DNA from: a virus
Strand: one strand, 5' to 3'
IMG/VR virus record: IMGVR_UViG_3300046804_003910
Span: 1-57,042 of that record
DNA: 57,042 bases
Part shown: positions 3,246 through 55,678 of the stretch, one piece after another
How the letters are laid out: each line of letters opens with the position of its first letter
How positions within the stretch are numbered: the first letter of the stretch is position 1
Made by a program: the position numbers and the translations under genes
Notes under the pieces: model-generated
Database searches by the model: none
Told to the model about the DNA's origin: nothing
The model's input: only the letters and a program-made list of their open reading frames with translations

Positions 3246-3291
3246 AAGACTTTGGCACAGATCGTGCGGATCAAACTCGTCGTAAAGTCTT
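3246..3291. repeat. Long hairpin, divergent copy E
   Basis: AAGACTTT (3246-3253) pairs with AAAGTCTT (3284-3291). The loop is different from B-D but contains its own inner stem, GCAC-AGATC-GTGC. A stem kept while the loop has changed suggests that the structure is what matters. Confidence 0.55.
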
Positions 3292-35217: not shown

Positions 35218-35263
35218 ATATTCCCAATAATGGAAGATGCTCTGTTATTGGGAATATTTTTTT
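35218..35263 (+). terminator. Rho-independent terminator before the tape measure gene
   Basis: ATATTCCCAATAA (35218-35230) pairs with TTATTGGGAATAT (35245-35257) over 13 bp and is followed by a T-run to 35263. The tape measure gene starts 27 bp later, so its transcription must come from read-through or a promoter inside this stretch, which I cannot see. Confidence 0.9.
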
Positions 35264-35289: not shown

Positions 35290-38200
35290 ATGGCACAAGG
35301 ATTTAATCTTACGGCCCAGCTTAATTTAGTTGGACCAACAAATGTGAGACAAATAGCATCTCAGATCAGGAGAGATCTTGGTACTGTTGATGCAACTGTA
35401 AACTTTAAATTAGATCCGGCAGCAACAAAAAATGTTACAGCTTTAAATACGGCGCTCAAACAACTAAATACAACACTAAATGCAACTAATACATCTGCAA
35501 CTTCTGCAGCCAATGCTATAAAAAATCTGAGCAGCAGCATTAATTCTGTAAAAGCTAATAACTTGTCCAAACAACTTAATAGTGCAGCAAAAGCCACTAG
35601 CAATCTTAATAAGTCCAACAATAAGATCCAAAGCTCTATTGCTGGTGCTAGTAATGAAATGCAAGAATTCGGCAAGCAAGCTGGACTTGCTGTTAGAAGA
35701 TTTACGGCATTTGCTACTGTCACTAGTGTTATATATGGATTAACAAATAGTATTAATAGAGGAGTTCAAGCATTTATTGATTATGATAAAGAATTGGTTA
35801 GATTACAACAGGTTACAGGTCAGTCTTTAAAAGGTTTATCTTCACTACAATCTGCTATTACAAATTTAGCAACATCTCTAGGAGTAGGATCAAAAGAATT
35901 AACCACAGTTGCTGTTACTTTGGCTCAGGCTGGATTAAGCGCTAAGGATACAGAGAAATCTTTGAAGGCTTTAGCATTAAGTAGTTTAGCTCCATCATTT
36001 GACAATATGAATGAAACGGTCGAAGGTAGTATTGCTTTAATGAGACAGTTCGGAATAGGTGCTGTAGATTTGGAAAAAGCGCTAGGTTCTGTAAATGCTG
36101 TTGCTGCAAAGTTTGCTGTAGAAGCTAGTGATATTATCACAGCTATACAGCGTACCGGTGGTGTGTTTGCAACAGCCAGTAGAGGAGTCAGCGAAGGAAC
36201 AGATGCGTTAAACGAATTTATAGCAGTATTTACTAGCGTAAGAGCAACAACTCGTGAAAGTGCAGAAACTATTGCTACCGGTTTAAGAACTATTTTTACA
36301 AGAATACAACGTGGAGATACTATTGATGCACTGAAAGAATTTGGAGTTAATTTAACAGACGCTCAAGGAAAATTCGTTGGAGCATACAAAGCTGTTGAGT
36401 TATTAAGTAAAGGATTAAATTCTATAGATCCTAGAGATCTAAAATTCTCACAGATAGTTGAAGAACTTGGTGGATTTCGACAAATTGGAAAAGTTATCCC
36501 ATTAATTCAACAGTTCGCCACTGCACAACAAGCCTTAGCAGTAGCCCAACAAGGACAAGGCTCTTTAGCCGAGGACGCTGCTACAGGACAAAAAAGCTTA
36601 GCAAATCAAATATCAAAAGTTAAAGAACAATTTTTTGCCCTATTTAGAGAGATTGGTCAAAGTCAAGGATTCCAAACTTTAGCCAAAGGAGCACTTAATT
36701 TAGCAAGCGCATTAATAAAAATCCTTGATGCTACTAAATCTTTATTACCAGCATTAAGTGTGGTATTAGCTTTTAAAGGATCAAAAGCATTAACGGAATT
36801 TGTTGGTGGTTTGGGCAGAGGTTTTAGAAGAGGTCCTGATAATAAAGCTGGAGCTGGTAAAAACGAACCATTTGCTCGCGGAGGTGTTGTTAAAAAGTTT
36901 GCCAGAGGAGGTGTTGTTCCTGGTAGCGGTAATAGAGATACTGTTCCGGCAATGTTAACCCCAGGAGAGTTTGTTATACGAAAAAAGGCTGTTGAAACTA
37001 TTGGTGCTGATAATCTTCATAATATGAATAAGTATGGAACTGGCGGAAGTATAAGAAAAGGAACATCAAATAGAAGAAGAAAATTTGCCAAGGGTGGTAA
37101 AGCAGCTAAATTAGCTAGCATAGATGGTGACTTTAGGGCGGTTGATGGAGATACATTTGATGCTACGGTGACTCCAACAGGAGATCAGTTCACAGCAAGA
37201 TTTAGAGTTGCTGAATTTGATACGTATGAAGGAAGAGGAAAAGCTAGTTTAGTTTCTGCGGATAAAGCAAAAAAAATAATGTCATTAAATAAAGGTAAAC
37301 CTCCGTTAGAAGAATCTTCTGGAAGATATAAGGTTCCAAAAGACTATAAAGTAACTAAAAATGACACAGCAGCAACGGCGGCACAAGAAGCAAAAAAAGA
37401 ACTACAAAGTAAACTGGATCAATTCGTAGGACCAGAAGCAGCTAAAAAAACAGTTCCTGGCGGAGGCGGTGTTGGTAGATATTTAGCTAAAACTGGATTC
37501 TCTATGCCAGATAGTTTGACAACAGGAAGAAAATGGGATGAAAAAGGAAAAGAACTTCTTAATGTTGGAGGTGTTGTTAAAAAATTTATGGCGGGTGGAA
37601 AAGCTCCAGAAGTTGTATTCGGAACAGGACAAACAAAATTTCCCAAGCGTATAACAAATGCCTATGCTAAAGAACTACAGAAAAAACTAGATTCAGAAAG
37701 AGTAAATAATGCTTTCGATCCTTATCCGACCAATGAAAGAATAACAATCGATCCTGCAGAAGTACAACAAAAATTTCAGGGCGAACCTTTTGATCGTAAA
37801 AGATTTTTAAGCTTATTTAATACTAAAGTTAGTCGCAATGAATTAATAGGTAATCTATCTGATTTTGCTAAGTTCATAGGACTACCGGGAGAGGATTTAA
37901 GTAAAATTTTACCACAAACTATAGATTTTGGCGGAGAATTACAGCGATATGGTAATCGTGGAACATTTAGTAGAGATCCTTTTAGTACTCAAGGATATGA
38001 TACTAAGGGTCTTGAAGCTTATGGCTTTACAGCTGCTGATGAACAAGATTTATTCGGATATCAAAAATTAATAGATGAAAAAACTAAAGAAATCAAAAAA
38101 ATAATAAAAACTCCCATAGAAACATTTGAGGATGGATCATTTAGTTATGATAGTGCGGCTTTTCTTAAGGCTACGAGCGAAAAAGATGAATTAAGTAAAA

Positions 38201-41200
38201 AATTATCCGCAGTTATGGATAAAAGGGCGGTTGCTCGTAAAGCTCTTATGGAACAAAAAAAGAGTATATTAGCATCAACAGGACGCGGGTTTGTTTCATT
38301 AGCCAGTAATGCTTTTGAACGTAATCAACCAAAAAATGTATTATATCATGAATTAACACACCAACTATTTAATTCTTTACGAGCTAAATCAGAAGACAGT
38401 TTTGCCAAATATAAAGAAAGGGTATCTCAATTATTCGGTGGAGATAATGACGATTTAGCAGACGCATTTGATGCGTTGGGTGGAAGTTATAACAGCGCGG
38501 ATGTTGTTTATGGACGCTCTTATAAGAATGGTTTACTTGATACTGTTTTACAAAATTTAAGACAAGGGACTATTAACTCAGGGGGAAGAAGCGCAAATCC
38601 TGAACTATCTAAAGAAGCATACTCTATGTGGGTAGAGTCTGGACAAAAAAAGAATGCTCGCGAATATCGTCCAATAAATCCAAAAATTAATGAGATACTA
38701 TTAAAAGGCGGACAGAGACAAGACACAATAGATAAAGTAGAAGATTATGGTAAAGAAGAATTTTTAACTACACTTATTCAGAATGCTCCTAAATTAGATT
38801 CTAATATGCAAGGAATTTTAGATTCCACTTTAAATGAATTATTAGGAAATGCTGGAATACAAAGACAAACCTACGCTGGCGGCGGCAAGGTTATGAGAAA
38901 CCTAGGATATATTGATTTTGATGTAATTAATGATCCAGCTAATGCTAAAACTGTTGAAAAAGCTATGAAAGAAGCTGGTGTTGATGGACCAAGAAAATAT
39001 ACTGAATATTTAATGGATTTAGCTACTAAGGCCAGAAAAAATACTAGTATTCAAAAATTAACAGCATTATATGGTGTGGCTGGTGCTGGAAAAAGCAGTA
39101 TCGCAATGGGTCGTGGAGCAAACGATATAGGAACATTAAGACAAACTAATCGTTTTCCAATATTAACGCCAGAAGATATATCTAAAGCTTCTGAGGTTAT
39201 GCTATTGAGTAGTACTGTCTCTCAAGATAAATTAGAAGGTATGTTTAAAGAAGCTGATAAAATTTATGGATTATCAACCACAACACAAGAAGAAAAAGAT
39301 AGAGTTCGTAAACAAAGAACAATGAGAGATGTTAGTGGTATAGGTCTATTTGGCAGAGAGGCTGGTAGTACCACAGGCGCTCCAACTGATACCGCAAAAG
39401 AAGAAGCTCTTTTAATGGATAGATTTGGAGATAAAACAACTATTTTGGGACGAGGAGATTCTAATAGACTACGCAGAAAAAAAGGAAATGAATTAGTAGA
39501 AATAACAAAGAAAAAACTAGCCTTTACATGGGGAGGATTTGCTCCAACAACAGCAGGACACGAATCTATTATGGAAGCAGCAAAAGCTGCTGGTATACCT
39601 TATGAAGATTTTATAGCTTTGGTTGGAGCTAATGAAGGTATAGATGCTAAAAGCTATAGAACAGCAGTATTTGATCAAGACTTCAGATTAGCATTAGCAA
39701 AAGCGGGATTTGGATCAAAGGGTGCCTCTGTATTACCAAAAGCTTTCGGAGATATGAGTGTTCCATTAGCTTTTGACATGGGAGAGAAGGGTGGCCGTAG
39801 ACAGATTACACTAGCTGGTGAAGGAAGTATGGCTTTTGTTGCAGATAAAACAGAGCAACAAATGGAGAAATATAAAAAAGCAGGATACGGAGTTACTAAT
39901 CTAGAAAGAACGGGTGGAATTAGTGGAACCCAAGTTAGAGACCTATTACTCAATGGAGATTTAGAAGGTCTTCAGAAAATTGTTTCTCCTGGAGTATTTT
40001 CATTATTAAAAGATAATATTTCTCAATTACAAAACAGAGCTAATGTATTACCAGTATTAATAGAACAAGCAGAAGCTGCATATAAGCAAGAAGTAGCCGC
40101 TATAGACGAGCAACTAGCAGCCACAGGAATAACTCGCGCAAATAATAAAAAAGCAGAGACAGACCCAGAGTATGCCGAGCAATTAAAACTTTATCAGTCT
40201 TTAAAAGAGAAAAAGAAAAAATTAGAAACTAAAAAATCATTTGAGCCGTATCGTCTGCTTAGACAATTGGCAGACAGTGATCCTGCCAAATATGGATTAA
40301 GATTTGATACAGTTTCTTCTGCCGTTTCTGGTCCGTCTTCTGCTATGCAGCAGGCTATTCTAGAAAAGGTGGCAAAACAAACTGCTGTTAAAAAATCTTC
40401 TGGCATATTACCAGCAGAAGGAAGAGAAATCTTGAAACGATTTGGGGCCGACAGATTACCAACAGATCCTATGTTTGGTCCGTTCGCAGGAAAAACAGTA
40501 CGAGATACGGCTGAAGGTGGAAAATTAAAATATTGGAATTCCGCTTTTAGGCCAGAGACAAAAGCAGATAAGCTAGCCTATTATACTGCAACAAGAGACT
40601 ACTTAATAGATAAATTTAACGAATCTCAAGGTTCTCAAAGAGCAACAGCATTAAAAGATACTACAAATGCTGTTTTATCATCAGCACAATTAGGTCTAGT
40701 AGGATTAAATCCACTAGGATACACCGGATTATTAGGTCCAGAAACTTGGAATCTTGGTACAGACCCATCCGGCCAAGAAAGATCAATAGACGCCTCCATA
40801 GTTCAAAGAGGATTACCAAGACAGTATCAAAATGTTATTGATTACCTGAGCGGAGAAACAGAGCAACTAGTCGGCGGGGCTGCTAAATTGCTTGGTATTA
40901 ATCCTAAAAAATTAACTCAAAAACAAAGAGAAACATTAGGTCAAGGTAATATAGAAGGAGCATTATTAGAACAAATTTTTGGATCAGCAGATGCTACCAT
41001 ACTAGATGACGCTTTAAGAACTCGTCCAATAGATTTTCCAAGTGGTATCGGTCCTAAAGCAGCATCAATATTTGGCATTGATCCTGATATTCCAACAGAA
41101 GTTAAAAGAACAATAGATAGCGGTAGTAGGGCTAAGGCTGTTGAAGAATTTCAAAGATATTTTAGACAACAATATGGTATTCCTGATCCAGACAAACAAA

Positions 41201-44200
41201 AAGTTCAAGCCTTAGCTGACGGAGGAGCTGTTAAATTATATCACGGATCCAATACTGGAATAGATGATAATGTTTTAAAGAACTTTAAAGAAAAAGGAGC
41301 ACTGAGCAATATTGCTACAGGATATGGCCAAGGGGCCGGATTCTATTTATATACAGAGAAGAATAAAGCTGAACAACAAGCAAAAATGAGAGTTAATGGT
41401 GGAAGTGGTTTTACCCTTGCTAGCGGCGACAGATCAGGAAAGCCAATGGTCCTTAGTTTTAATGAAGTATTAGATCCTAAAACTTTTGATCTTGATTATG
41501 AATTACAAAAAAAATTAGTAGTACAATGGATTCATGATAATTATGATCTTTTAAAAGATAAATATGCTCCTTCAGAAACTCAAACAGGATTAAAAGATAA
41601 ATTTGATAAAAATCCAGATGCTGGAATGATGTCTGTTGGTATACGAGTTCAAGAAGGATCTCAAACCTTAAAGTCTGAAGATGGAGCAGAGTTTGAGGTA
41701 AAAGGAGGAGCTAGAAAATCTATCTATGCTGGGAGCGAAGGAGATGTTAGAGAAGGAGCTTTGCTTGGACAGCTTATGTCCAGAATACAAGCCGGTGATC
41801 CTGATCTAGTACAACAGTTTGAGAGTGGTTTATTTAAACATCCTCTAGGATTAGCACTAAAATATGTTGGATCAACGCCACTTAAGCCAACCAACATAGA
41901 AACTTTTGCAACAGGAGGGCGAGCAGGAATATCTCCAAAAGATACAGTTCCCGCTCTTTTAACTCCTGGCGAATTTGTTATAAATAAACAAGCAGCACAA
42001 AAAATTGGTTACGGTAAATTAAATCAATTAAATAAAGCAGATAAAGTTAAAGGATATAATAAAGGAGGAGCTGTAGGAGCTGTACAAAGATTAGCATTGG
42101 GGGGATCTGTCGATCCAAATTCAATTATTAGACAACTTGGCGATTGGATAATGGCAACATCCAAAGAGAACCAAATAACAAAATTTGATACTAGACCATC
42201 AAATATTAGCAGATCAACCACGGCCACCTCCAAAGACGTTAATGAGGATTTAGAATCGATTGTTAAAAGTCTTAATGATTTAGGTTATAGTGCCGCGGAA
42301 TCTGCTACATTAATTAAAAAACTTAGAAATACTAGTGAGATTAGTTACAAAGAATTAGAAAAAGCTTTATCTAAAGATATTGCTAATCTAAAAGCCTTAG
42401 GTGCTGGTTTTGATACTATTATTCAAGCTGAAACGGCTCTAGCTAAGATTCGCGAAAAAGGACAATCTCAAGTTGATTTAAAGAAAAATTTAGAAGGAGC
42501 ATTTGGTCAAAGAGGTAATGTATCAGATAAATTATTAGGAGGAAAACTAAATATCGGAGACATCGGAGGAGGTTCCGCAGCGGCACAAACAGCCATAGAA
42601 AGACAAGCAGAATATCTTATAAAGCAACGAACATCTAGTTTAAAATCTGCCGGAAAAGAAGTAGACTTGGCTAAGATAACAGAACAAGCATATGTAAAAG
42701 CGACTTCTAAAGTATCTGGAATAGATAGTAAAGCATTTAAGAGTTATGGAATAAGTGGCAAAGATATTAAAAATTATATAGATGAATCAAAGAAAAATGC
42801 AAAAACTCTTCAAGAATTAGATCAAGCATTATTATCTCAAAAATTAGCAGAATTAAGAAACTCAGCAGCATACTCTGCCGCATCAAGATCAGAAAAAGCA
42901 AGGCTTGAAAAAGATCTAAGAGCAGAAACAAGAAGAGAAATTTCTGTTCGACGATCATTAATTAACGATCTAGCAAAAAGAACAGGATCAAAAGGCGTTG
43001 GCGCTACAGACATGATGGACTTCAATAATAGTCCTATTCTTAAAGCATTAAAATCTATCACATTGCCAGGGGCACTGATGGGAGCTTCTACTGCTGCTGG
43101 ATTAATAGGAGGACAAGGAGCCCTAATAGGCAAAGCAATGTATGGAGCAAAAGATGATGCATCACAACTACAGGCGGCCAAAACAGCCGTAGCTGTAGAA
43201 AATGCAGGAGTAACTATAAGTACAGGATTAGCGACAGCCGCACAAATTATACAAACTGTTCCTGGCAAAGCTGGATTAATAGCAGCAGCAGTTGTTGCAA
43301 TAGGTAGCGCTATTTATGCCGCCGCTGATTGGTTTGGTGATTTTAGCGGAAAGCAACAAGAAGCAGCTATACAAAAACAAAAAGAGTTAATGGCCACCCG
43401 AACAGAGGCCGCTCAAAGAAATCTTGATTTGGCATCTACTAATCTGGATAGAGATCCAAATAATATTGGATTTATTAACGCTTTCACTGATGCGCTAAAT
43501 AATATTAACACTATCAATGCAACAAATGCAGTCATAGATGTTAAGACTGCTGAATTAGACTTTAAGATGAATGCTCCAGTAGATGAAAAAGCATTATGGG
43601 CAGGGTCAGAAAATGTAGACATGGGATTCTTAGGACTAAACAAATTAGGAGATACACTAGGAAGATGGGCTTCTCAATTCTTGCCAGAATGGACAGGCAT
43701 GGGTGCTCCAAAACAAAAATTTGGTGCTCCAGAAATGGCAAAAGTTAGTGCTCAAATAGCTTCGCAGAATCAAGGAGCTGCTAATAAAGCATTACAAACA
43801 GTAACTCAGGCGATGATGGAACAAAATGTTGGGCGAGAATCTATTCTAACAGGAGAGAAATATCAGTCTCAAAGAACAGCTGTTATGATGGGTGATTTAG
43901 ATGGCGTTAAAATGTTTAATGCTATGTTGGTAGAAGCAAAAAACAGAGCAGGAGGAAGGGAACTTAGCGAAGAGGAAGTAATAGCTGTACAAAAAAGAGC
44001 AACAGAAGAATACATTAAAAATGGAAGTGCTGTTCTAGAATCAACTATAAAAAGTGCTGAAGTTGCTAAAGCTATGGAAGAAGCAGATAGGGCTGGTAGG
44101 AAATTAGCTACAAGCTTAAATAAAATGATTGATGCTATAGATCAATCTATTAATAGAATTCAAGCAGAATCTCAGGAACGAGCAAAAGCCAGTAAGCAGA

Positions 44201-47200
44201 TGATCAAAGCAATAGGAGGAGAAGGAGGTCCAGCATCGTATACTAATCGCGCTCGCTCTATTATAGATAATCCTATGGCATATAGTGAAGATGAGTATAA
44301 AGGAGCAATGAAGCAAGTTGGTGATATGGTAGGAGGAGAACAAGGCAGAAATCTTACAGGATTAGTTGGCATCGGCGCAAATATGTCAGATGCTATGTAC
44401 GCTGGTATTGTTAACAAATTAGGGGGCAAAGCTAGCACAAGCAAAGAAGAAGCAGCGAAAGAAGCCATAGCCACAGGAACAGAATACATTAATAATTTGG
44501 ATGTTAGTGATGATGTTAAAAAAGTTTTAATAGAAAAACTAACAGCAAATGTTAATCAAATTGCTGAAAAAATGGGAGAGGCATCATTTGCTAATAATCC
44601 ACAACAAGCTGTTGATCAATTTGCTGCTGCTGTTAGAGATAGTTCTTCTGCGCTTGGAGATAATTTAGAGTCTAAGGCAAAAGAAACAGCAAAAGCACTA
44701 TTAGCTCTAAAAGATAATGCATTAAATGAGTTTGCTCAAGGATTACAAGAAAGCTCAGAATATCTCAGGCAAGCTGCAAGACTTCGTATTAAAGCAGATA
44801 AAATAGCTTATGATGCTAATAATGATCTTAGAGAGATAACAACAGGAGTTGGAGAAAGCTATGGCGAAGCGAAAGGTCAATTAATGAAAGAGGTTGGCTC
44901 TCTGACCGGAGGAGCTACTGATCCGGCTGCAATTGGTAAAATGATCGAGGATGAGGCAGGAAAAAATAGAGCTTTGAACCAAAAATTACAAGATGCTCAA
45001 AATTCAGGAGATGTTGACGCTGCTTCTAAGTTAATAAGAGAAATTCAAGAGAGTAATGATAAATTATATAACTACAATGACGCTCTAGACAAATTAGCAG
45101 ATAGTACAGAACTTTACCAAAAAGCTCTTGATGAAGCTAGAAATATTGCTGGACTACAAGATCAACGTAAAGGATTTATTGAAAAACTATTAACTAATAC
45201 CCCTGAAGAAGCCGACAAGCTAAATCAATCATTTATAAGATTACAAAGAAATTTATCAGGAGGATTTAATAATCCTCAAAATCAAAGAGACGCTCGTAAA
45301 GCATTTAATGAAACATATTTTAAAACAGGAAATGTAAGGGAGGCTGCTAGAGCAGGAAATACTGTCCTAGCTAATCAACGTAAAGAAACACTAGCTCTGC
45401 AACAAGATCCTGGTTTTAGAGCTATGAGAGAATTGAATTTAAGAAACCAAGGCGCTTCTGAAGCTGATATAAAGGCTATGTTTGCCAAAGAAGAAGCAAA
45501 TTTAATGAGGCAAATGGCGGTAGAGAGCGGTTATGCTAATAATCCTGCTATTATGCAAGCTATAAACTCTATTGAAAATCGTAATGTCGATCCTGCATTC
45601 CAAAAAGCATCTCAACAGGTACTAGAAGCTGCAGGATTACGCAAAGCAGCCACAGAAGAACAAGCTCGCGTTAAAGAAACCCAAGCTTTGATTGCTAATG
45701 AAACCGCTACTATAAATCTAACAAATGCAGTTAATAATTTAAGCATTGTCATGCAAGATGCTTTTGCTAGAAATATGAGGGTGGAAGGCGGAAGGATTCC
45801 TGGACCAGCAGGAGGAAAAGTTCCTTTAAATCTGGGAGTTGGAGCGCCTGCTGCTCCTAAATCTAAGGGTGGATTAATTTATGCTGCTGATGGTACATAT
45901 GTTAACTTTGAGCCAAAAGGAACAGATACAATACCAGCAATGTTGTCTAAGGGAGAATATGTTGTTAACGCCAAGTCTACTAAAAAGAATCTTTCTCTTT
46001 TAGAGGCTATTAATGGTGGCAAAGTTAATGGCATGAGTAAAGGAGGAATCGTTTATTTATCAACGGGTGGGGAACCAGTAAAACCGGCATCTCCAAAATT
46101 CAAACCAGACAAAGGACCTAGAAAACCAAATGAAGTTGAAGCAGATACTGTTCCACTATTAGTTATTAAAAATAGAGACTATCCAGGATCTTTGACTCCG
46201 GAAGAGCAAGCAAGAGTAAATAGCTATGTCGGATTTACAAACTTTACATCAAATATGCCAGGACAAGTATGGTATGTAGATCCTAAAACAGGACAACATC
46301 GTGTCAAAGATGCTCCAAAGTCTAGAGATTTATATGGATGGGATTTTCATGATGCGTCTGACCCAGCATGGATCAAGAAGAAAGAAACATTATTTAAACA
46401 AGCAGAAGCCCGAGCAGAGTCACAATTAACGCAATTAACTCTACAAAGAGGATTCATGGGTAAGGGTAGTGGTCCCAACAAAGGCAATAATAGACTCGTA
46501 ACACCAGCAGCAGAACCTCTGAGTAGAATGAGTAATATTATTCCTCAAGAAGACCTCAATAAAATGGCAAGTATTCAAAGAGGAATTAATGACGGAACTT
46601 ATCAACCAACAGTCAAAGATCAAGATTTCTTGGACAGCATGGAGGCCAAAGTTAAAGAACAAATAACTCCTTTTAATACTATGGCTGGTGACTATGGTCA
46701 GACAATGAATTATATTACTGATTTAAGATTAAAAGTAAGCGATATCAGTATTAAAGCGGGCAAAGATGAAAATTCAAAAATTGTTCCTATTAACCTAACA
46801 GATCCTCGTTTAGATTTTGCTAGAGAACGTATTCGTAAATTAAAAGAAGAAGGAAGAGAAAAAGAGATTCCAGCATATATTGATGGCCTAAAGAAAAAAA
46901 TGGGCTATGGAAGAGATATAAATGCTCCATCTAGCGAGATTGATCCTAAATTTAAAGGAGCAAATTCATATTCCGCTTCTTGGAGACAAAATAGATCAGT
47001 ATTATTTGGAAAAGCAGACTACGAGTGGTTGGACAGGGTAAAAGAAGGAGATCCAGAAGCAACAGCTAAGTTTTTAGATCCTCAGAACAATGCTACTGCA
47101 AACATAGGCCCTGCACCAACAGCACCCAAAGTGAGTGATTTTAAAGGGTCTGGTGGAGCGGATGCATATAGAGAGGCTCAAACAAAATATAAAGCAGACT

Positions 47201-50200
47201 TGGCAAGATGGGAAAGTGGGAAAGCTGCTGTTGATAGTAGATCAGGAACTAATAAACCAGGAACAATGAAATATAGCGAAGAAGAATTACAGGCCATGAG
47301 AGAATATTTAAAGTATCATGGCGGTCCATTAACCGAGCATTATCCAAGTAACTATGATACTTATCGCCTAAATAATGATCCATCGGTCTTAGGCAGAAGA
47401 TTATATCTTATGAGTCGCATGACGAGCGGTGGAATGACAGTTAGTGAAAGAAAAGAATGGGAATTATTACGATATAATAATCCAGAAGGTATCAGAAAAT
47501 GGAGAAAAGATATTGAAGAATGGAGACAAACTCCGCAAGCAAAAGCTCTTGATCCAAGAAGTGGAGCAGGAAAAAAATACCCATACTCTATTCCAGATGA
47601 AAGTCAGGCGCAAAAAGAATCTAGACAAAGACAACTAGAAAATAGAGATAGAGCAACAACTAATGGAAACAAATTTACTATCGAAGGCGGTAGATCAACT
47701 CAAAATTCTGCTCCTTTGGTTCTGCCAGAGCCAAAAGAAGGATTTCCTATAACTTTACCGAATATTCCAGAAAATAAAGCACAACAAGAGCAGCCAGAAG
47801 TTAAAACAAATACCGGCATTGTACCTAGTGTTATACCACAAAAACCATTTAGTGGTAAAGTTTGGAGATTAACTACCGTTGGAAATAATGGAGAAATTAC
47901 TACTAGAAATTATAGATCAAAAGAAGCATACTTAAACGCAAAGAAAAAACAAGCAGAAGCCAAGGCCAACGGTGGATTAATATATGCTTCATTAGGTCAG
48001 CACATTGATTTTGCTCCAAAAGGCACGGACACTATTCCTGCTATGTTAACTCCTGGTGAGTTTGTTGTTAATGCTAGGGCAACCAAGGAGAACTTGCCAT
48101 TATTGCATGCTATTAACGATGGCAAAACTAATGGGATGAGTAAAGGAGGAATTGTTTATCTCGCAACAGGAGGAGATCCGTCAAAACCACAAGGACCAAA
48201 ACCACCAGCCACTAAGACAAAATCAAAAGCTCCTACAAAGGCAGATGTACAAAAATTAGAAAGAGCCCGAACAGATGCTCAACAAACATCATGGATGATG
48301 AGTGAGGCTGCTGGAGTAGCACCAGATGAGGTTGTAAATAGATCAGCCGCTAGTTGGACAGAATCACAAGTCGGTTATGGTAAATGGCAAACTATGAGCG
48401 AGCAGCAAAGACAAGAAGAAATAGATAAAAATAAACCAGTATTTCAAAGGAAGTGGGACTCATACAATGCAAGACAAAATGCTGCAATGGAGCAGTCGGC
48501 TAGAGAAGCAGGGTATGAAAATGCTAAAAATGATCCTAATGCTGGTATAGTTGGAGCTAATTTTTTCAATACTGAAAAAACAAGATCAATGACCGAGTTT
48601 GATAAGGCTCAAGCGGATTATGAGAAGGCAAGAGATGCTGCGATAGCCGCACAAGAGCCTATGCCAAATTCTTCTGCTCCTCCAATGATAGGACAATCGG
48701 CCTACCCTAATCAAGCTGCTCGCGACCAAGCAGTACAACAAAAAGCAGAAGAACTGGCTAGAAAAGAAGGAATTACTCATCCTCCAGTAACAACAGGAGA
48801 AGATGGAGAAACTGTAATTGGTGCTGTGCCAAGGTTTGAAGCTTTACCACCTTTACAAAAGGCTTTTATTGCATTACATAAAGATAACGCTAGAAAATCT
48901 AATACTGAAACCAGTGTAACACAAGGAAAAGCAGAAATAGAACATGATATTCAGACAATGAGATCGTATGTTGGTGCTGTCGATGATAAAGGCAATCCTT
49001 TAGTAAAACCAGAGGACGCTGCTAAAGTTAATGCAATATTAGATAAATATGATCCGAACAATCCAACAGCTTATGCTGAAGAGTTAGATCAAGCTTTACA
49101 AAATAATGAACCAGGATCCAGCGGAAGAACATTTAATGATATTCGAACCAAGGCATTAGAGAGAAATTTAGACACTACATATCAAGAAGCTGTTCAGTCT
49201 AAAATACCAGTAGCAGAACAACATATAGCAGGAGATGCTAAAGCAGAAGCAGAAGCACAAAGATTAATGCCTGGACAAACAATGGCCCCAACGACGAAAG
49301 GCGGGAATAATCCAACAACATGGTTATATGAGCCGGCTGGAACTATGAAACCAGTAGATCTAGATCCTAAAACCAAAAAGGCGGCAGAAGAAGCTGCTAA
49401 TACTGTTTTTGCCCAAGCGGAATATGGAGCATCTGGACAACTAAAAGCCAGAACAGACGCTCTGGCAAAAGTAAATAGTCCAGATTTTGATAAACTACCT
49501 AAAGACGAACAAGAAAAAATTCGAAAAGATGCTATAGCAAATCCACCATCGGAGGTAACAAGGGCAGTAGAAAAAGAAATAAAAGAGAATATGGTAAGAG
49601 AATACTCGCAAAAAGAGTACGATAAAGCACGAGCTGCTGGTAAAAGCGAAGAAGAAGCAAATAAGGCAAGAGCAAAAGTAGAGAGAGATTTACAACAAAA
49701 TAATACCGCAACATATTCTGGTTTTGATAGCGAATATAAACTTAGAACACAACCTAGTCATGTATACAAACCAGGAACAGTTGGAGAACAATATAAAAAA
49801 ACCTATGATAATATTTTAAAAAGACAAGTAGATGAAGCTCAACAACAGGTCGCAACTATGGCAGCTCAAGGGGAGAATGCCACCTTTGAATTCCAAGGAC
49901 AACAAATTCCTGTACAAAACTTGTCAACAAAAAACTCAATGGGTCGTGATACTAGTGGAGGAGCATCTAATGCTCGTTTAAGACTAGATAGATATAACAC
50001 ATTAACACAAACTCAAGCAAATTTGGATGCTACTATTAATAAGGCCAGGAGAGATGCTGCTGACGCGGAAAGAGAAATTGGATCACGAACAATCGGCGAA
50101 AAAGTTGGCGAATCACTAGTTGGATTGGGTTCTGAATTACAAGGAAACTTTACTTATCAAAGCGGGGCTGAAAAAGCTAAAGCTAAAGCAGATGCGGCAT

Positions 50201-52095
50201 TAGCAGAAGCAGAAAGACGTAAACAAGAATTATTAATTGGTGGCGGCCGAGGTAATGTAGAAAATGTTGCTAGAAAACCACAGATACAAACAATATTAAC
50301 GCCACAAGAAAACGAGGCAGCAAGACAACAAACTCTTGAAGCGGCTAATGTTGCGGATCAAGCGGCCATAAGTGCTGCTACTATTGGTGTTGGCGTAGCA
50401 ACAGGAGGATCCTCTTTAGCTGTACAGTTGGTGGCAGGAACAGCCACAAGCGCTGCTGGGAATATATATGCTGCAGAAAAGGGTAATATTAGCTATGAAG
50501 AGGCGGGACGAAATGTTGCTTTAGAGGCCCTTGGAACAGTTGCTGGGGTGGCACTAGCTCCTGGGGTAGTCAAAGGAGCACGAGCAGCAGCGGCACCAGT
50601 TGGAGATGCTGCTACAAGCGCCACAAAAAGAGCAGGACAAAGAGCTGCTGATTTTGTATTCCCTCCTAGAACAAGAGATGTTTATGATAGTATTAAACCA
50701 TGGGAGCTTGGACCAGGACCAGACGCACGATTATCATCGCCTCTTGATGTTCCTGGAAGACCGGGTAGAATAGATTTGTATGATGGTAAAGATTTTGTAA
50801 GATCTATACCTCAAACAAGGCCAGATTTTAGTGCAATGCCTTCTACATCTTCCAATAAACCAATGAAATCTGGTAGCAGAGGTAATAAATTAACAAATGC
50901 AGAAATAAAACAAATCAATGCTGAGGCAGCAGCATCGTCCGCAAAACCTATAAATGCTGATTTAGCTCAATCTCAGAGTAAGAGTAAAAAAATTGTACCT
51001 AAAAGAACACCTGATCAAGAACGTGCATTTTCTAAATATAAGGCTGATGCTATGGAGCAAAGGAGACAAAGAGAAAGAAATTTTAGAGATTATGCTTATA
51101 GAGAAGCGGATTACAGTACAGTTAATTACAATTACAATCAAGAGTATGAAGATTATCTAGATTCTCTTGGTTTTTATCAGTGGGAGTATGAATCTGACCT
51201 AATGGACCTATATAAATATAAAAAGAATTTAAAGGCTCCAAAAAGAAACCTTGTGTCTCAACCATCTTCTATTAACGAAATAAGAAAAGCAAAATACGAG
51301 CAATTAAAAAAACGTCGCACTAGAGATATCATAAGAAAAGCCAGAGCGGATAAAACAGCGTCACCCTCGCTTCGAAAAGCCCCAGCAACTCTAGCTCGCG
51401 GAGGAGTAGCATACGCCAGTAATGGAGCGCTAATGTCTGCAAGATCTGGCACAGACACTGTTCCTGCAATGTTAACTCCGGGAGAATTTGTTGTTAATAG
51501 AGAAGCATCACAAAGACATATGCCAATATTAGAAGCTATTAATAGTGGACATTTTAATAGAGGTGGAATAGTTAATTATTTGGCCAATGGAGGCGTAGTT
51601 GCTCCAAAATATTATGCTGAAGGAGGTAATATACCAGCTTCTAGCGCTAAGAATAGTGGTGGTGTATCTAGTAATGTGGCAGAAGTGCAAAATGCTATTA
51701 GCGAACAAATACAAGCACAAATGGGTCAAATGCAATCAATGTATGAGACTGCCGGTGCTATGATGGCAAGCATGAACACCACAACCTCCAACTTGGTTAA
51801 TGGATTAACTACTACGGCCAGTAGTTTACAAACTTATTCTACTAATATTAGTAATATTAGTTTACCAGAAACAATAACATTCCAAGGAAACATAACCTCT
51901 AATCATAATTTTAACGGCGCAGATGCGGCAAACCATGTATTAAAAGATCTAGGCCCAACAATGAAACAACAAACAAATAAACAAATCAAAGGAGCATTTG
52001 ATAAAGTAAATAAAGGAGTTGGTAATTTAGATTCTGGATCTTTGGGCGTTAATACCAATGGAATTATAGGCGGCAGCACCGGTAACACAGCTTAA
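35290..52095 (+). CDS. Tape measure protein, giant, with embedded enzyme-like domains (5,601 aa)
   Basis: Residues about 165-420 (YDKELVRLQQVTGQSLKGLSSLQ through QIVEELGGFRQIGKVIPLIQQFA) are the TP901/PhageMin tape-measure core. The rest holds, in order, SNase-like (609-), HELTH metallopeptidase-like (about 985-1170), P-loop (1262-1269), nucleotidyltransferase-like (1408-1575) and ADP-ribosyltransferase-like (1980-) domains. A coiled-coil half with two hydrophobic stretches (about 2590-2690 and 5018-5105) follows. Five copies of a DT(V/I)PA(M/L)L-x-GE(F/Y)V module divide it (Asp at 550, 2218, 3546, 4247, 5389). A tape measure sets tail length at roughly 1.5 angstrom per residue, so up to about 840 nm. 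The open frame is unbroken for 16.8 kb. Confidence 0.92.
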   Translation: MAQGFNLTAQLNLVGPTNVRQIASQIRRDLGTVDATVNFKLDPAATKNVTALNTALKQLNTTLNATNTSATSAANAIKNLSSSINSVKANNLSKQLNSAAKATSNLNKSNNKIQSSIAGASNEMQEFGKQAGLAVRRFTAFATVTSVIYGLTNSINRGVQAFIDYDKELVRLQQVTGQSLKGLSSLQSAITNLATSLGVGSKELTTVAVTLAQAGLSAKDTEKSLKALALSSLAPSFDNMNETVEGSIALMRQFGIGAVDLEKALGSVNAVAAKFAVEASDIITAIQRTGGVFATASRGVSEGTDALNEFIAVFTSVRATTRESAETIATGLRTIFTRIQRGDTIDALKEFGVNLTDAQGKFVGAYKAVELLSKGLNSIDPRDLKFSQIVEELGGFRQIGKVIPLIQQFATAQQALAVAQQGQGSLAEDAATGQKSLANQISKVKEQFFALFREIGQSQGFQTLAKGALNLASALIKILDATKSLLPALSVVLAFKGSKALTEFVGGLGRGFRRGPDNKAGAGKNEPFARGGVVKKFARGGVVPGSGNRDTVPAMLTPGEFVIRKKAVETIGADNLHNMNKYGTGGSIRKGTSNRRRKFAKGGKAAKLASIDGDFRAVDGDTFDATVTPTGDQFTARFRVAEFDTYEGRGKASLVSADKAKKIMSLNKGKPPLEESSGRYKVPKDYKVTKNDTAATAAQEAKKELQSKLDQFVGPEAAKKTVPGGGGVGRYLAKTGFSMPDSLTTGRKWDEKGKELLNVGGVVKKFMAGGKAPEVVFGTGQTKFPKRITNAYAKELQKKLDSERVNNAFDPYPTNERITIDPAEVQQKFQGEPFDRKRFLSLFNTKVSRNELIGNLSDFAKFIGLPGEDLSKILPQTIDFGGELQRYGNRGTFSRDPFSTQGYDTKGLEAYGFTAADEQDLFGYQKLIDEKTKEIKKIIKTPIETFEDGSFSYDSAAFLKATSEKDELSKKLSAVMDKRAVARKALMEQKKSILASTGRGFVSLASNAFERNQPKNVLYHELTHQLFNSLRAKSEDSFAKYKERVSQLFGGDNDDLADAFDALGGSYNSADVVYGRSYKNGLLDTVLQNLRQGTINSGGRSANPELSKEAYSMWVESGQKKNAREYRPINPKINEILLKGGQRQDTIDKVEDYGKEEFLTTLIQNAPKLDSNMQGILDSTLNELLGNAGIQRQTYAGGGKVMRNLGYIDFDVINDPANAKTVEKAMKEAGVDGPRKYTEYLMDLATKARKNTSIQKLTALYGVAGAGKSSIAMGRGANDIGTLRQTNRFPILTPEDISKASEVMLLSSTVSQDKLEGMFKEADKIYGLSTTTQEEKDRVRKQRTMRDVSGIGLFGREAGSTTGAPTDTAKEEALLMDRFGDKTTILGRGDSNRLRRKKGNELVEITKKKLAFTWGGFAPTTAGHESIMEAAKAAGIPYEDFIALVGANEGIDAKSYRTAVFDQDFRLALAKAGFGSKGASVLPKAFGDMSVPLAFDMGEKGGRRQITLAGEGSMAFVADKTEQQMEKYKKAGYGVTNLERTGGISGTQVRDLLLNGDLEGLQKIVSPGVFSLLKDNISQLQNRANVLPVLIEQAEAAYKQEVAAIDEQLAATGITRANNKKAETDPEYAEQLKLYQSLKEKKKKLETKKSFEPYRLLRQLADSDPAKYGLRFDTVSSAVSGPSSAMQQAILEKVAKQTAVKKSSGILPAEGREILKRFGADRLPTDPMFGPFAGKTVRDTAEGGKLKYWNSAFRPETKADKLAYYTATRDYLIDKFNESQGSQRATALKDTTNAVLSSAQLGLVGLNPLGYTGLLGPETWNLGTDPSGQERSIDASIVQRGLPRQYQNVIDYLSGETEQLVGGAAKLLGINPKKLTQKQRETLGQGNIEGALLEQIFGSADATILDDALRTRPIDFPSGIGPKAASIFGIDPDIPTEVKRTIDSGSRAKAVEEFQRYFRQQYGIPDPDKQKVQALADGGAVKLYHGSNTGIDDNVLKNFKEKGALSNIATGYGQGAGFYLYTEKNKAEQQAKMRVNGGSGFTLASGDRSGKPMVLSFNEVLDPKTFDLDYELQKKLVVQWIHDNYDLLKDKYAPSETQTGLKDKFDKNPDAGMMSVGIRVQEGSQTLKSEDGAEFEVKGGARKSIYAGSEGDVREGALLGQLMSRIQAGDPDLVQQFESGLFKHPLGLALKYVGSTPLKPTNIETFATGGRAGISPKDTVPALLTPGEFVINKQAAQKIGYGKLNQLNKADKVKGYNKGGAVGAVQRLALGGSVDPNSIIRQLGDWIMATSKENQITKFDTRPSNISRSTTATSKDVNEDLESIVKSLNDLGYSAAESATLIKKLRNTSEISYKELEKALSKDIANLKALGAGFDTIIQAETALAKIREKGQSQVDLKKNLEGAFGQRGNVSDKLLGGKLNIGDIGGGSAAAQTAIERQAEYLIKQRTSSLKSAGKEVDLAKITEQAYVKATSKVSGIDSKAFKSYGISGKDIKNYIDESKKNAKTLQELDQALLSQKLAELRNSAAYSAASRSEKARLEKDLRAETRREISVRRSLINDLAKRTGSKGVGATDMMDFNNSPILKALKSITLPGALMGASTAAGLIGGQGALIGKAMYGAKDDASQLQAAKTAVAVENAGVTISTGLATAAQIIQTVPGKAGLIAAAVVAIGSAIYAAADWFGDFSGKQQEAAIQKQKELMATRTEAAQRNLDLASTNLDRDPNNIGFINAFTDALNNINTINATNAVIDVKTAELDFKMNAPVDEKALWAGSENVDMGFLGLNKLGDTLGRWASQFLPEWTGMGAPKQKFGAPEMAKVSAQIASQNQGAANKALQTVTQAMMEQNVGRESILTGEKYQSQRTAVMMGDLDGVKMFNAMLVEAKNRAGGRELSEEEVIAVQKRATEEYIKNGSAVLESTIKSAEVAKAMEEADRAGRKLATSLNKMIDAIDQSINRIQAESQERAKASKQMIKAIGGEGGPASYTNRARSIIDNPMAYSEDEYKGAMKQVGDMVGGEQGRNLTGLVGIGANMSDAMYAGIVNKLGGKASTSKEEAAKEAIATGTEYINNLDVSDDVKKVLIEKLTANVNQIAEKMGEASFANNPQQAVDQFAAAVRDSSSALGDNLESKAKETAKALLALKDNALNEFAQGLQESSEYLRQAARLRIKADKIAYDANNDLREITTGVGESYGEAKGQLMKEVGSLTGGATDPAAIGKMIEDEAGKNRALNQKLQDAQNSGDVDAASKLIREIQESNDKLYNYNDALDKLADSTELYQKALDEARNIAGLQDQRKGFIEKLLTNTPEEADKLNQSFIRLQRNLSGGFNNPQNQRDARKAFNETYFKTGNVREAARAGNTVLANQRKETLALQQDPGFRAMRELNLRNQGASEADIKAMFAKEEANLMRQMAVESGYANNPAIMQAINSIENRNVDPAFQKASQQVLEAAGLRKAATEEQARVKETQALIANETATINLTNAVNNLSIVMQDAFARNMRVEGGRIPGPAGGKVPLNLGVGAPAAPKSKGGLIYAADGTYVNFEPKGTDTIPAMLSKGEYVVNAKSTKKNLSLLEAINGGKVNGMSKGGIVYLSTGGEPVKPASPKFKPDKGPRKPNEVEADTVPLLVIKNRDYPGSLTPEEQARVNSYVGFTNFTSNMPGQVWYVDPKTGQHRVKDAPKSRDLYGWDFHDASDPAWIKKKETLFKQAEARAESQLTQLTLQRGFMGKGSGPNKGNNRLVTPAAEPLSRMSNIIPQEDLNKMASIQRGINDGTYQPTVKDQDFLDSMEAKVKEQITPFNTMAGDYGQTMNYITDLRLKVSDISIKAGKDENSKIVPINLTDPRLDFARERIRKLKEEGREKEIPAYIDGLKKKMGYGRDINAPSSEIDPKFKGANSYSASWRQNRSVLFGKADYEWLDRVKEGDPEATAKFLDPQNNATANIGPAPTAPKVSDFKGSGGADAYREAQTKYKADLARWESGKAAVDSRSGTNKPGTMKYSEEELQAMREYLKYHGGPLTEHYPSNYDTYRLNNDPSVLGRRLYLMSRMTSGGMTVSERKEWELLRYNNPEGIRKWRKDIEEWRQTPQAKALDPRSGAGKKYPYSIPDESQAQKESRQRQLENRDRATTNGNKFTIEGGRSTQNSAPLVLPEPKEGFPITLPNIPENKAQQEQPEVKTNTGIVPSVIPQKPFSGKVWRLTTVGNNGEITTRNYRSKEAYLNAKKKQAEAKANGGLIYASLGQHIDFAPKGTDTIPAMLTPGEFVVNARATKENLPLLHAINDGKTNGMSKGGIVYLATGGDPSKPQGPKPPATKTKSKAPTKADVQKLERARTDAQQTSWMMSEAAGVAPDEVVNRSAASWTESQVGYGKWQTMSEQQRQEEIDKNKPVFQRKWDSYNARQNAAMEQSAREAGYENAKNDPNAGIVGANFFNTEKTRSMTEFDKAQADYEKARDAAIAAQEPMPNSSAPPMIGQSAYPNQAARDQAVQQKAEELARKEGITHPPVTTGEDGETVIGAVPRFEALPPLQKAFIALHKDNARKSNTETSVTQGKAEIEHDIQTMRSYVGAVDDKGNPLVKPEDAAKVNAILDKYDPNNPTAYAEELDQALQNNEPGSSGRTFNDIRTKALERNLDTTYQEAVQSKIPVAEQHIAGDAKAEAEAQRLMPGQTMAPTTKGGNNPTTWLYEPAGTMKPVDLDPKTKKAAEEAANTVFAQAEYGASGQLKARTDALAKVNSPDFDKLPKDEQEKIRKDAIANPPSEVTRAVEKEIKENMVREYSQKEYDKARAAGKSEEEANKARAKVERDLQQNNTATYSGFDSEYKLRTQPSHVYKPGTVGEQYKKTYDNILKRQVDEAQQQVATMAAQGENATFEFQGQQIPVQNLSTKNSMGRDTSGGASNARLRLDRYNTLTQTQANLDATINKARRDAADAEREIGSRTIGEKVGESLVGLGSELQGNFTYQSGAEKAKAKADAALAEAERRKQELLIGGGRGNVENVARKPQIQTILTPQENEAARQQTLEAANVADQAAISAATIGVGVATGGSSLAVQLVAGTATSAAGNIYAAEKGNISYEEAGRNVALEALGTVAGVALAPGVVKGARAAAAPVGDAATSATKRAGQRAADFVFPPRTRDVYDSIKPWELGPGPDARLSSPLDVPGRPGRIDLYDGKDFVRSIPQTRPDFSAMPSTSSNKPMKSGSRGNKLTNAEIKQINAEAAASSAKPINADLAQSQSKSKKIVPKRTPDQERAFSKYKADAMEQRRQRERNFRDYAYREADYSTVNYNYNQEYEDYLDSLGFYQWEYESDLMDLYKYKKNLKAPKRNLVSQPSSINEIRKAKYEQLKKRRTRDIIRKARADKTASPSLRKAPATLARGGVAYASNGALMSARSGTDTVPAMLTPGEFVVNREASQRHMPILEAINSGHFNRGGIVNYLANGGVVAPKYYAEGGNIPASSAKNSGGVSSNVAEVQNAISEQIQAQMGQMQSMYETAGAMMASMNTTTSNLVNGLTTTASSLQTYSTNISNISLPETITFQGNITSNHNFNGADAANHVLKDLGPTMKQQTNKQIKGAFDKVNKGVGNLDSGSLGVNTNGIIGGSTGNTA
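36868..37050 (+). repeat. Tape-measure DTVPA module 1
   Basis: ARGGVVPGSGNRDTVPAMLT and PGEFVIRKKAVETIG, with Asp550 at the DTVPA start. Gly-rich KKFARGG linkers flank it. Confidence 0.85.
37114..37500 (+). other. SNase-like domain within the tape measure
   Basis: VDGDT (618-622) and RFRVAEFDTYEGRG (637-649) match the staphylococcal-nuclease pattern 'viDGDTf---VRl-giD-pE', with Asp619, Asp621, Arg637 or 639, Asp644 and Glu647 as the expected metal and phosphate ligands. A nuclease acting on host or injected DNA, or a relict fold, are both possible. Confidence 0.65.
38242..38799 (+). other. HExxH metallopeptidase-like domain within the tape measure
   Basis: VLYHELTHQLFNSLR has His1020, Glu1021 and His1024 of a zincin. 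KEEFLTTLIQN about 140 residues on is a candidate third-ligand region. Peptidase domains on tail proteins can open host envelope or cleave tail proteins; which applies is unknown. Confidence 0.65.
38950..39480 (+). other. P-loop region within the tape measure
   Basis: LTALYGVAGAGKSSIAMGRG has a Walker A GVAGAGKS at 1262-1269 after a beta-strand and before a helix, as expected for a P-loop NTPase or kinase. The next part has charged helices and DRFGDKTTILGRG. It may work with the following nucleotidyltransferase-like domain. Confidence 0.6.
39511..40014 (+). other. Nucleotidyltransferase-like (HxGH superfamily) domain within the tape measure
   Basis: FTWGGFAPTTAGHESIMEAA (TAGH at 1421-1424, T/HxGH motif) and GGISGTQVRDLLLNGD (ISGTQVR at 1544-1550, the ISSTxxR equivalent) are the two signature motifs of cytidylyl/NMN-adenylyl transferases. 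The first motif has Thr in place of the first His, as in several members. What is adenylylated or cytidylylated is unknown. Confidence 0.7.
41227..41860 (+). other. ADP-ribosyltransferase-like domain within the tape measure
   Basis: KLYHGSNTGIDDNVLKNFKE (His1985 after Tyr1984) and YGQGAGFYLYTEKNKAEQQA (2012-) follow the PARP-type layout 'vyHGt------f' and 'G-G-Y-t----A---a'. The third acidic residue was not identified by eye. Injected ARTs such as T4 Alt modify host RNA polymerase; a similar role here is only a hypothesis. Confidence 0.6.
41902..42069 (+). repeat. Tape-measure DTVPA module 2
   Basis: GGRAGISPKDTVPALLTPGE with Asp2218, then FVINKQAAQKIG and KGGAV. It follows the ART-like region directly. 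Confidence 0.85.
43060..43335 (+). other. Hydrophobic tape-measure segment 1
   Basis: Residues about 2590-2690 include ALMGASTAAGLIGGQGALIG, VTISTGLATAAQIIQTVPG and KAGLIAAAVVAIGSAIYAAA. These are long enough to cross a membrane. Tape measures often hold such stretches and can form the DNA channel through the cell membrane. Confidence 0.6.
45862..46089 (+). repeat. Tape-measure DTIPA module 3
   Basis: GGLIYAADGTYVNFEPKGTD (Asp3546), then TIPAMLSKGEYVVNAKSTKK, LLEAINGGKVNGMSKGGIV. It is closely similar to module 4 over about 70 residues. Confidence 0.85.
47965..48180 (+). repeat. Tape-measure DTIPA module 4
   Basis: GGLIYASLGQHIDFAPKGTD (Asp4247), TIPAMLTPGEFVVNARATKE, LLHAINDGKTNGMSKGGIV. 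Nearly the same as module 3. Confidence 0.85.
50344..50604 (+). other. Hydrophobic tape-measure segment 2
   Basis: Residues about 5019-5105 include AAISAATIGVGVATGGSSLA, VQLVAGTATSAAGNIY and LGTVAGVALAPGVVKGA. It is a second candidate membrane-inserting part, near the C-terminus. Confidence 0.55.
51394..51640 (+). repeat. Tape-measure DTVPA module 5
   Basis: GGVAYASNGALMSARSGTDT (Asp5389), VPAMLTPGEFVVNREASQRH, ILEAINSGHFNRGGIVNYLA, then GGVVAPKYYAEGGN. It lies close to the C-terminus of the tape measure. Confidence 0.85.
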
Positions 52096-55100: not shown

Positions 55101-55678
55101 ACACTTGGACCAGATTACCTGTTGGGAATTATACTCTAAATAGAGCCTCGTCAAATTCAACCCATTGTTCCATTCTGGGGCTTTCTCCTATTAATGACTA
55201 TCGCTTTAGAGTTGCTGCACAAAATAATATTGGAATAGGATCATTTTCCAATAATTCTGATACACTAACGCCAGAATCATCCGCTCCAAAAGCTCCAAAT
55301 AATTTAACATATACTAGAAATTATAACGAAAATAATACTTCTGATATTAGTTTGAGTTGGTTGGCTAGTGATGCCGGAGGAGCCCCTATAATAGGATATA
55401 CTATACAAGAATCTACAGATAAAGGATTAACATGGCAAGACTACAATAATACATCTAATTTTATAACAGGAACATCAGAAGTGGTATATGCTACTAATTC
55501 AAGTTTAGATTATTATTATAGAATTTCTGCGTGGAATGATTATAATAGCTTAAATAACCAAAGTTCATTTGCGTACATATATGTTTCTGGCACCAATCCT
55601 GGAGCACCATTTGATACAATAGATAACAGTTTATCTAATTGGGACTTTGGTGTTGTATTATTTACGGGAGTATGTTAG
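52112..55678 (+). CDS. Tail-tip protein with fibronectin type III domains (1,188 aa)
   Basis: First gene after the tape measure. The N-terminal 200 residues have a mixed layout that I do not recognise. The middle is fibre-like (FFFAYDGRIGLNIPTGLRPL, then VNEF-like and Ser/Asn-rich repeats). The C-terminus holds two fibronectin type III domains: VPGAPQNLSSTQG, ISLIWTAPVNNGGTPILSYI, NDYRFRVAAQNNIGIGSFS; and APKAPNNLTYTR, ISLSWLASDAGGAPIIGYTI, DYYYRISAWNDY. In siphoviruses such domains are common on central tail-tip fibres and can bind cell-surface sugars. Tail-tip or distal tail role is an inference from position. Confidence 0.75.
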   Translation: MQNLLRIFDNIAFTFSLNGDHIKPGSPLQNYKLLDNNHIGYNIPYIARNSSAKSYETGIGAVVIKDGIIQVKKIKVLSSSNDNASVQFENANNEFFVFANQEFFDKAITNVMVINSDASLEPISALYLIECENNLNIKLPAVEECNNTILDFKIINPTNYSVTLRSSDDAVITTITNNDYKRFAVYNNRWIEVSGSSISSIKALSVNDSFTALSDPAGDNNSFQYKVDNTTFAGSDIYWHTTSGLLFGSDSASSAKNIIPYTGNNSTLFNLSNDASDFIIYGSGNPNRNFFFAYDGRIGLNIPTGLRPLTLVHIINTGCQQGIRLENRVSCVPANITLYHKPATDVVSDTVISQIHLNSKNSEGNETYYSRLQAKATEVTAGNEKGGLEIIVVSGSSYIKTINTNTDSTSIGYNNQKLNISNNSNILLYNTNAGLRISSTGVAISGSTISLNAAAILTTGVISAKLQSEQIKLTNISPNSILTIDSEGIISAASSSVNDNGSIQLSIADNKLLTTTNNGNITGIYNIDDYFLTNKDISWNFYPKETGIICTRDITFASPVNANEFSVGDQVVIDVSGTNYYRTVDELSLNNNEIIGIRINEILSIGGTNDVQVYSITKGGYLELSKYVDDGITSDATSHILSIRPNLNTTFNTNKKNTNFEIYGLNSDPAFSVKASGSTVGINTADAYVIPSGRTIITEQPASNIANLTVDGWLYAKKMMVGEVGSSSSALISPSFIETSGLKTKTLQYVNLQQIDVSGNILSINNGPLYVTSGVNNTQNIQSYSNIEYSSNQINNKTLSVFSSGLRAYSQSGNPALYVYPKINNSVSGSAYSGVFFNTFLDRAKSTASGWSYDTNAKITINTDTPYVINSLATGTYLVNSILVTGYGYLYSDLTVNGITYSSEIITNDIYLKPSPSSNNTGKYIANALLTIDRNGKIISKIPTENYTVPGAPQNLSSTQGNGIGNGEISLIWTAPVNNGGTPILSYIIEFSLDDGDTWTRLPVGNYTLNRASSNSTHCSILGLSPINDYRFRVAAQNNIGIGSFSNNSDTLTPESSAPKAPNNLTYTRNYNENNTSDISLSWLASDAGGAPIIGYTIQESTDKGLTWQDYNNTSNFITGTSEVVYATNSSLDYYYRISAWNDYNSLNNQSSFAYIYVSGTNPGAPFDTIDNSLSNWDFGVVLFTGVC

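Follow-up and report, generated by a model that had tools for sequence, protein, structure and literature searches.

The window analysed here, a 57,042-nucleotide stretch of viral DNA (IMG/VR record IMGVR_UViG_3300046804_003910), raises the question of what several unrelated enzyme-like domains are doing in a phage tape measure. Tape measures occupy the tail tube, are ejected at infection, and are present at few copies per virion. Enzymes in tape measures are already known, and so are multi-enzyme injected phage proteins; the open-access papers searched contained no account of a cassette array that joins both. The answer that is favoured here, with somewhat more confidence than doubt, is that the giant protein of this locus is the tape measure of an uncultured non-contractile-tailed phage and also a carrier of exchangeable effector enzymes that resemble those of polyvalent proteins.

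The preliminary description of this DNA had proposed a single unbroken 16.8-kb frame of 5,601 residues, holding a tape-measure core and an array of enzyme-like domains, and both the frame and the core were verified (Table 1). The frame opens with an ATG that is preceded by an AGGA-like site and has no internal stop over 5,601 codons; read in reverse complement, the region contains 379 stops. Just 5' of the start, a hairpin (TTCCCAATAA...TTATTGGGAA) with a T run (window 35220-35262) looks like an intrinsic terminator. The core is matched above cut-off by two curated models, namely TIGR01760 over aa 149-485 (8e-29, 100.7 bits, cut-off 28.8) and PF10145 (PhageMin_Tail) over aa 189-393 (4e-21, 76.2 bits, cut-off 33.2), as well as by PHROG_28 over aa 50-498 (7e-31), and its mean column identity in 14 relatives is 76%. 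Five copies of a DTVPA/GEFV motif occur along the chain; this motif is common to many PHROG tape-measure families and not restricted to the present gene. Five cargo regions lie between the first and the second module, as had been described, and a Pfam scan of the second bay (aa 3595-5369) returned no domain. A query covering most of module 5 and the C-terminus (51460-52092) found matches in all 30 relative records searched. The independent contig L087 is colinear with aa 280-2275 from end to end at 68% identity, with the identical domain order, and the array in the window is therefore no assembly artefact. Elsewhere in the window, a 1,188-aa protein encoded 3' of the tape measure (52112-55678) carries a fibronectin type III domain (1e-11) and is possibly a tail-tip protein, a nucleotide-sugar epimerase (PHROG_540, 4e-71) is encoded near the terminase gene (5730-6725), and positions 1-3300 have a G+C content of ~0.51 as compared to 0.35 elsewhere, with no Rfam family or tRNA found in them.

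Table 1. Features of the giant tape-measure gene in the window (positions of the window; aa, residues of the encoded protein).
Feature	Position	Strand	Residues and remarks
Tape-measure protein gene, giant	35290..52095	+	5,601 aa
TP901-type tape-measure core	35734..36744	+	aa 149-485; TIGR01760, PF10145, PHROG_28 matches
DTVPA module 1	36877..37101	+	aa 530-604; HMM of modules; same motif in PHROG tape-measure families
SNase-like domain	37093..37599	+	aa 602-770; D619-GD-T, R639, D644, E647, R730
HELTH domain	37615..38874	+	aa 776-1195; HExxH 1020-1024
P-loop kinase domain	38881..39501	+	aa 1198-1404; Walker A 1262-1270
HIGH-superfamily nucleotidyltransferase	39514..40053	+	aa 1409-1588; TxGH 1421-1424, ISGTxxR 1544-1550
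Possible PD-(D/E)XK-like domain	40357..41184	+	aa 1690-1965; NIEGxxLE ... IDFP ... PTEVKRT
ART-like domain, DUF3990-like	41215..41901	+	aa 1976-2204; H in LYHGS, Y in GFYLYT
DTVPA module 2	41893..42105	+	aa 2202-2272; HMM of modules
Helical segment of conserved length, candidate ruler	43177..45771	+	aa 2630-3494; present once in 45/45 full-length proteins
DTVPA module 3	45865..46071	+	aa 3526-3594; HMM of modules
Second variable bay, proline-rich	46072..51396	+	aa 3595-5369
DTVPA module 4	47968-48174	+	aa 4227-4295; inside second bay; HMM of modules
DTVPA module 5	51397..51594	+	aa 5370-5435; HMM of modules
C-terminal segment	51595..52092	+	aa 5436-5601

Scanning IMG/VR with the core returned 113 viral contigs; the 80 highest-ranking ones, at 55-82% identity, were retained. 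Among 50,697 phage records (INPHARED) the best core match was 27% identical, and the cargo matched INPHARED phages in the DTVPA motif only; the comparison thus points to a tape-measure family without a close cultured member in that collection. Core relatives also occur in four MAG contigs, L171 (VFHP01000007.1), L170, L169, and L168, labelled SAR202, Verrucomicrobiales, Chitinophagia, and Alphaproteobacteria, respectively. As these four matches fall in four phyla, MAG binning is not to be trusted as a guide to the host, and the four are probably phage contigs binned by chance. A total of 46 full frames, read by joining neighbouring stretches of one contig (L028 reaches the contig end), range from 2,329 to 7,795 aa, i.e., 3.3-fold, so that the window chain is not the longest of its own family. 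The longest, L055 (IMGVR_UViG_3300010885_064105), contains 11 DTVPA modules, and this protein and the second longest, L013, show EF-hand matches in the second bay (loci L114 and L096; best 6.5e-7).

Length statistics for 45 of these proteins, including the window and with near-duplicates removed, reveal a shared anatomy. The core and the first DTVPA module are present in all 45, followed by a first bay that spans 127-2,351 aa (CV 0.55), in most cases another module, which is often doubled, one helical segment per protein (45 of 45; 673-892 aa, mean 814, CV 0.05), and a C-terminal part or second bay of 134-4,663 aa (CV 0.56), with further modules in most. Besides the core, the helical segment is the sole long part of constant length in the family; in the window its proline content is 1.7%, versus 3.9% in the bay. 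A Pfam tally of 36 bays yielded ADPrib_exo_Tox (best E 2e-15, from four relatives), ART-PolyVal, and SNase, and a regular-expression search of the family bays for VIP2-like ART motifs gave no match. Domains of these three Pfam classes are known from phage proteins that are injected (PMC5512222, PMC9503650).

Single-sequence scans of the window cargo against Pfam, PHROG, and NCBIfam gave almost no matches, and alignments of relatives were required for domain assignment. Of the five enzyme folds that had been named in the preliminary description, four were supported by profile and structure searches, and the fifth, HELTH, has no PDB counterpart; the idea of several enzyme folds loaded on one tape measure was thereby borne out. 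For the SNase-like domain, a profile of 10 sequences matched Staphylococcus thermonuclease in the PDB (9e-4), and DGD, R, D, and E are invariant in these 10 sequences. Equivalents of all five catalytic residues of thermonuclease (D21, R35, D40, E43, and R87) are present in the window, the fifth, an arginine, being R730. In the HELTH domain, H, E, and H of the HExxH motif are invariant in 14 of 14 sequences with identities down to 42%. The same alignment has a GKEEFLTT stretch, most of which is likewise invariant, and E1156/E1157 are candidates for the third ligand. The AlphaFold2 model is mostly helical (pLDDT ~90 over the domain), and a fold search of this model against the PDB gave no match with E below 0.08. 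HELTH is best described as an HExxH domain without an assigned fold: the motif behind the earlier label of metallopeptidase-like holds, whereas the identity as a peptidase is putative. Within the reach of scans limited to sequences sharing short conserved peptides, all 31 HELTH loci and all 22 kinase-nucleotidyltransferase loci found lie inside giant open frames like this tape measure.

The P-loop and nucleotidyltransferase-like regions had been described as two separate domains; both folds are supported, but they count as one enzyme because they are fused in all 21 relatives that were compared. The Walker A lysine of the P-loop domain is invariant, and a Foldseek search with the model of the pair retrieved zeta toxin (6epi, probability 0.99). 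As the Foldseek rows carry no query ranges, this match was placed on the P-loop domain according to the class of fold. The second half shows the (H/T)xGH and ISxTxxR motifs and the nucleotidyltransferase fold of the HIGH superfamily, with S, T, and R of ISGTxxR invariant among relatives, a PF16581 match just below the curated cut-off (3e-5), further PDB matches obtained with its profile, and NadM as a structural match (2qjo, E 2e-4, probability 1.00). The pair is a zeta-toxin-like kinase with a HIGH adenylyltransferase. An identity as NadR was considered and rejected: the domain order is reversed, the kinase is zeta-toxin-like, and the match to the NadR chain has an E value of 0.76. NAD supply is an unlikely purpose of this enzyme, as the few tape-measure copies per virion would provide little of a metabolic NMN adenylyltransferase.

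The ART-like domain, also named earlier, has moderate support. H10 and Y46, which correspond to the strand-1 histidine and the strand-2 tyrosine of the H-Y-E/D class, are invariant in 8 of 8 sequences, and DUF3990 and ART-PolyVal are the best Pfam families, both weak (for ART-PolyVal, E 0.26 with the window and 0.002 with one relative). Its profile matched a DUF3990 protein with P 4e-4 and an hhalign probability of 33%, as against at most 1% for each control (20 versions with shuffled columns and five further profiles); Foldseek gave no confirmation of the ART fold. A further conserved domain, which is absent from the earlier list, covers aa 1690-1965 and has related segments in 52 family proteins. 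A motif taken from a 34-sequence alignment shows an E-D-ExK pattern in the window, consistent with a possible PD-(D/E)XK nuclease; the lysine of ExK is missing in some relatives, PDB sequences gave no match, and the structure model has low confidence. In the bays of L046, L041, and L037, a HAD-phosphatase-like segment with the motifs AIDFDETLA (DFDET), LTARP, and LIDD (IDD) lies ahead of this domain, and none is present in the window.

Domain order differs among relatives, and so does the cargo of pairs with near-identical cores. The cores of L011 and L012 are 96.2% identical, and only L012 has a HELTH cassette: the chains align from residue 1 to ~851 and resume at GGKVERKIG after the cassette, which has a GGK linker at each edge. 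Likewise, the window and L007 align over residues 1-771, the HELTH residues 772-1192 are extra in the window, and the alignment continues from residue 1193, while L004 and L009 (cores 97.5% identical) differ in cargo load. An [FYLI]xxGG linker was found at 46 of 49 domain starts versus 7% of random bay positions, a count that is partly circular as domain edges were picked by eye; the L011/L012 and window/L007 breakpoints are independent of these edges. From these alignments, the cargo is a swappable cassette array common to a large uncultured phage family, with cassettes gained and lost at GG linkers between near-identical cores. If the delivery reading set out below is true, the L011/L012 pair would be one example of a natural cassette swap that shows which tape-measure positions accept cargo.

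In the favoured reading, the N-terminal core and the constant-length helical segment would do the assembly and ruler work, and the bay between them would hold the enzyme cassettes (SNase, HExxH domain, kinase-adenylyltransferase, possible nuclease, and ADP-ribosyltransferase) separated by glycine-pair linkers, at which recombination would bring cassettes in and out. The chain would be threaded in extended form through the tail tube, adding to the length of the tube, and would be ejected at infection, upon which the domains would regain their folds within the envelope or the cytoplasm of the host and, early in infection, act on its proteins or nucleic acids in the manner proposed for polyvalent-protein effectors. 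Among possible uses of the array, delivery together with the DNA has the best support, packaging in the virion and injection being inferred from the identity of the protein as a tape measure. Given the few copies per virion, metabolite supply is a poorer fit than targets among proteins or nucleic acids, and early action on host macromolecules would be the most likely use of the cassettes. Such early action has been proposed for polyvalent proteins (PMC5512222). In mycobacteriophage TM4, the enzyme motif of the tape measure Tmp aids DNA injection into stationary cells (PMC1796659), and tape-measure-related effectors of contractile injection systems (CIS) are loaded and bear diverse functional domains; a proposed adaptation of these effectors is to fit the tube lumen and fold after ejection (PMC13277306). 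The lumen of a tail tube is ~4 nm wide (PMC9022992), which leaves no room for a row of folded domains abreast; the cargo must be extended in the tube, the chain being either unfolded or processed.

No sheath gene (PF04984/PF17482) was found in 15 records, some larger than 200 kb, which as contigs may be fragments; this fits a siphovirus-type, non-contractile tail. At 1.5 angstrom per residue, 5,601 aa predict a tail of ~840 nm, a plausible value provided that the entire chain is threaded. It is reasonable because two known cases agree with it: the tape measure of Thermus phage P23-45 has 5,002 aa for a tail of >800 nm (PMC9022992), and loss of the 114-aa enzyme motif from TM4 Tmp shortens the tails by ~20 nm, as predicted (PMC1796659). 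The constancy of the helical segment would also allow for a shorter tail, the cargo being processed. The protein might be a polyprotein, processed in the course of tail assembly or earlier, with the core and the helical segment as the only ruler and the cassettes at work in the head or in the cell that produces the phage. The constant length of the ~814-aa segment would suit this reading, as would the uniform GG linkers, which could be cut sites, and the HExxH motif of one cassette, given that zincin domains have been proposed to process polyvalent proteins (PMC5512222). However, most relatives that keep other cassettes lack HELTH, which is thus not a general processing enzyme, and the enzyme motif of TM4 is retained in the chain, where it contributes to the length of the tail (PMC1796659). 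Processing of this kind is considered unlikely.

The cassettes are under purifying selection, with dN/dS values against the nearest relatives of 0.05 for ART, 0.08-0.10 for the nucleotidyltransferase, 0.12-0.15 for the P-loop domain, and 0.13-0.15 for HELTH; a purely structural segment would likewise be under purifying selection. The bay could be a length filler, in which captured or duplicated domains are kept for length or foldability and enzyme activity is incidental or lost. The 3.3-fold length variation, the tolerance of tape measures for insertions, and a second bay that is mostly proline-rich sequence without an assigned domain all agree with such a filler; it is nevertheless rather improbable, because divergent sequences all keep the active-site residues, the two-domain kinase-nucleotidyltransferase unit is intact in all 21 cases, and bays go down to 127 aa, i.e., length itself is not conserved. 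Lastly, it is very unlikely that the cassettes serve envelope passage only, like the peptidoglycan hydrolase motifs of mycobacteriophage tape measures: the well-tested tape-measure enzyme does target the cell wall (PMC1796659) and HELTH could be a wall peptidase, but the wall offers no substrate for folds of the adenylyltransferase, P-loop kinase, ART, or SNase type, and the 36 bays tallied with Pfam included no lysozyme, M23, or NlpC/P60 family.

Delivery of effector enzymes by the tape measure thus remains preferred, and a broader proposal can be advanced tentatively, at slightly less than even confidence: this family may use its tape measure as a permanent delivery channel and swap the enzyme load cassette-wise at linkers, as polymorphic toxins do, with changes in tail length as a by-product. 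Tail lengths across the family would run from about 0.35 to >1.1 micrometres at 1.5 angstrom per residue. If true, the tape measure would be a modular protein-delivery chassis, beyond a ruler and membrane channel, and several-fold differences in tail length are predicted between phages with near-identical cores. Siphophage tails would also be linked to polyvalent proteins and to the tape-measure-related effectors of contractile injection systems.

The protein shares with TP901-1/PhageMin_Tail-type tape measures the conserved N-terminal core, the helical segment, TM-like stretches, and the DTVPA/GEFV modules, which are seen in many PHROG tape measures, and differs from them in being several times longer and in having two variable bays and several unrelated enzyme folds. 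As in motif 3 of TM4 Tmp, enzymes are embedded in the tape measure, the TM4 motif being dispensable and counting for tail length; Tmp has one wall hydrolase motif, whereas the window has between four and six enzyme-like domains, with folds of an intracellular type (PMC1796659). The tape measure of P23-45 is of comparable length and has an annotated metallopeptidase domain, whereas the window protein and several relatives are longer, and no multi-enzyme cassette bay was found described for P23-45. Phage NadR and NadM share the HIGH adenylyltransferase fold, and NadR likewise pairs it with a P-loop kinase; in contrast, the kinase of the window is N-terminal and zeta-like, and the pair is embedded in a tape measure (PMC9503650). 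Polyvalent proteins, too, are single phage polypeptides, encoded near virion genes, that combine many catalytic domains of unrelated kinds, with HExxH and ART domains in both cases and one relative of the window matching ART-PolyVal (PMC5512222). Of their signature domains (MPTase-PolyVal, ART-PolyVal, and LPD), ART-PolyVal came up here, weakly with the window (E 0.26) and at 0.002 with that relative. Such proteins are recognised by at least two domains of unrelated biochemistry, and SNase, kinase, adenylyltransferase, and ART are found here in one frame. Their prototypes are the N4 virion RNAP, MuF, and Dar proteins, and the term 'tape measure' is absent from the paper that describes them (PMC5512222), whereas the vehicle here is a tape measure. 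The CIS effectors Sle1 and Tme combine a tape-measure-like scaffold with an exchangeable functional domain and are loaded in the tail tube; they belong to bacterial contractile injection systems and carry this domain at the C-terminus, whereas the present protein is from a phage and carries serial internal cassettes (PMC13277306).
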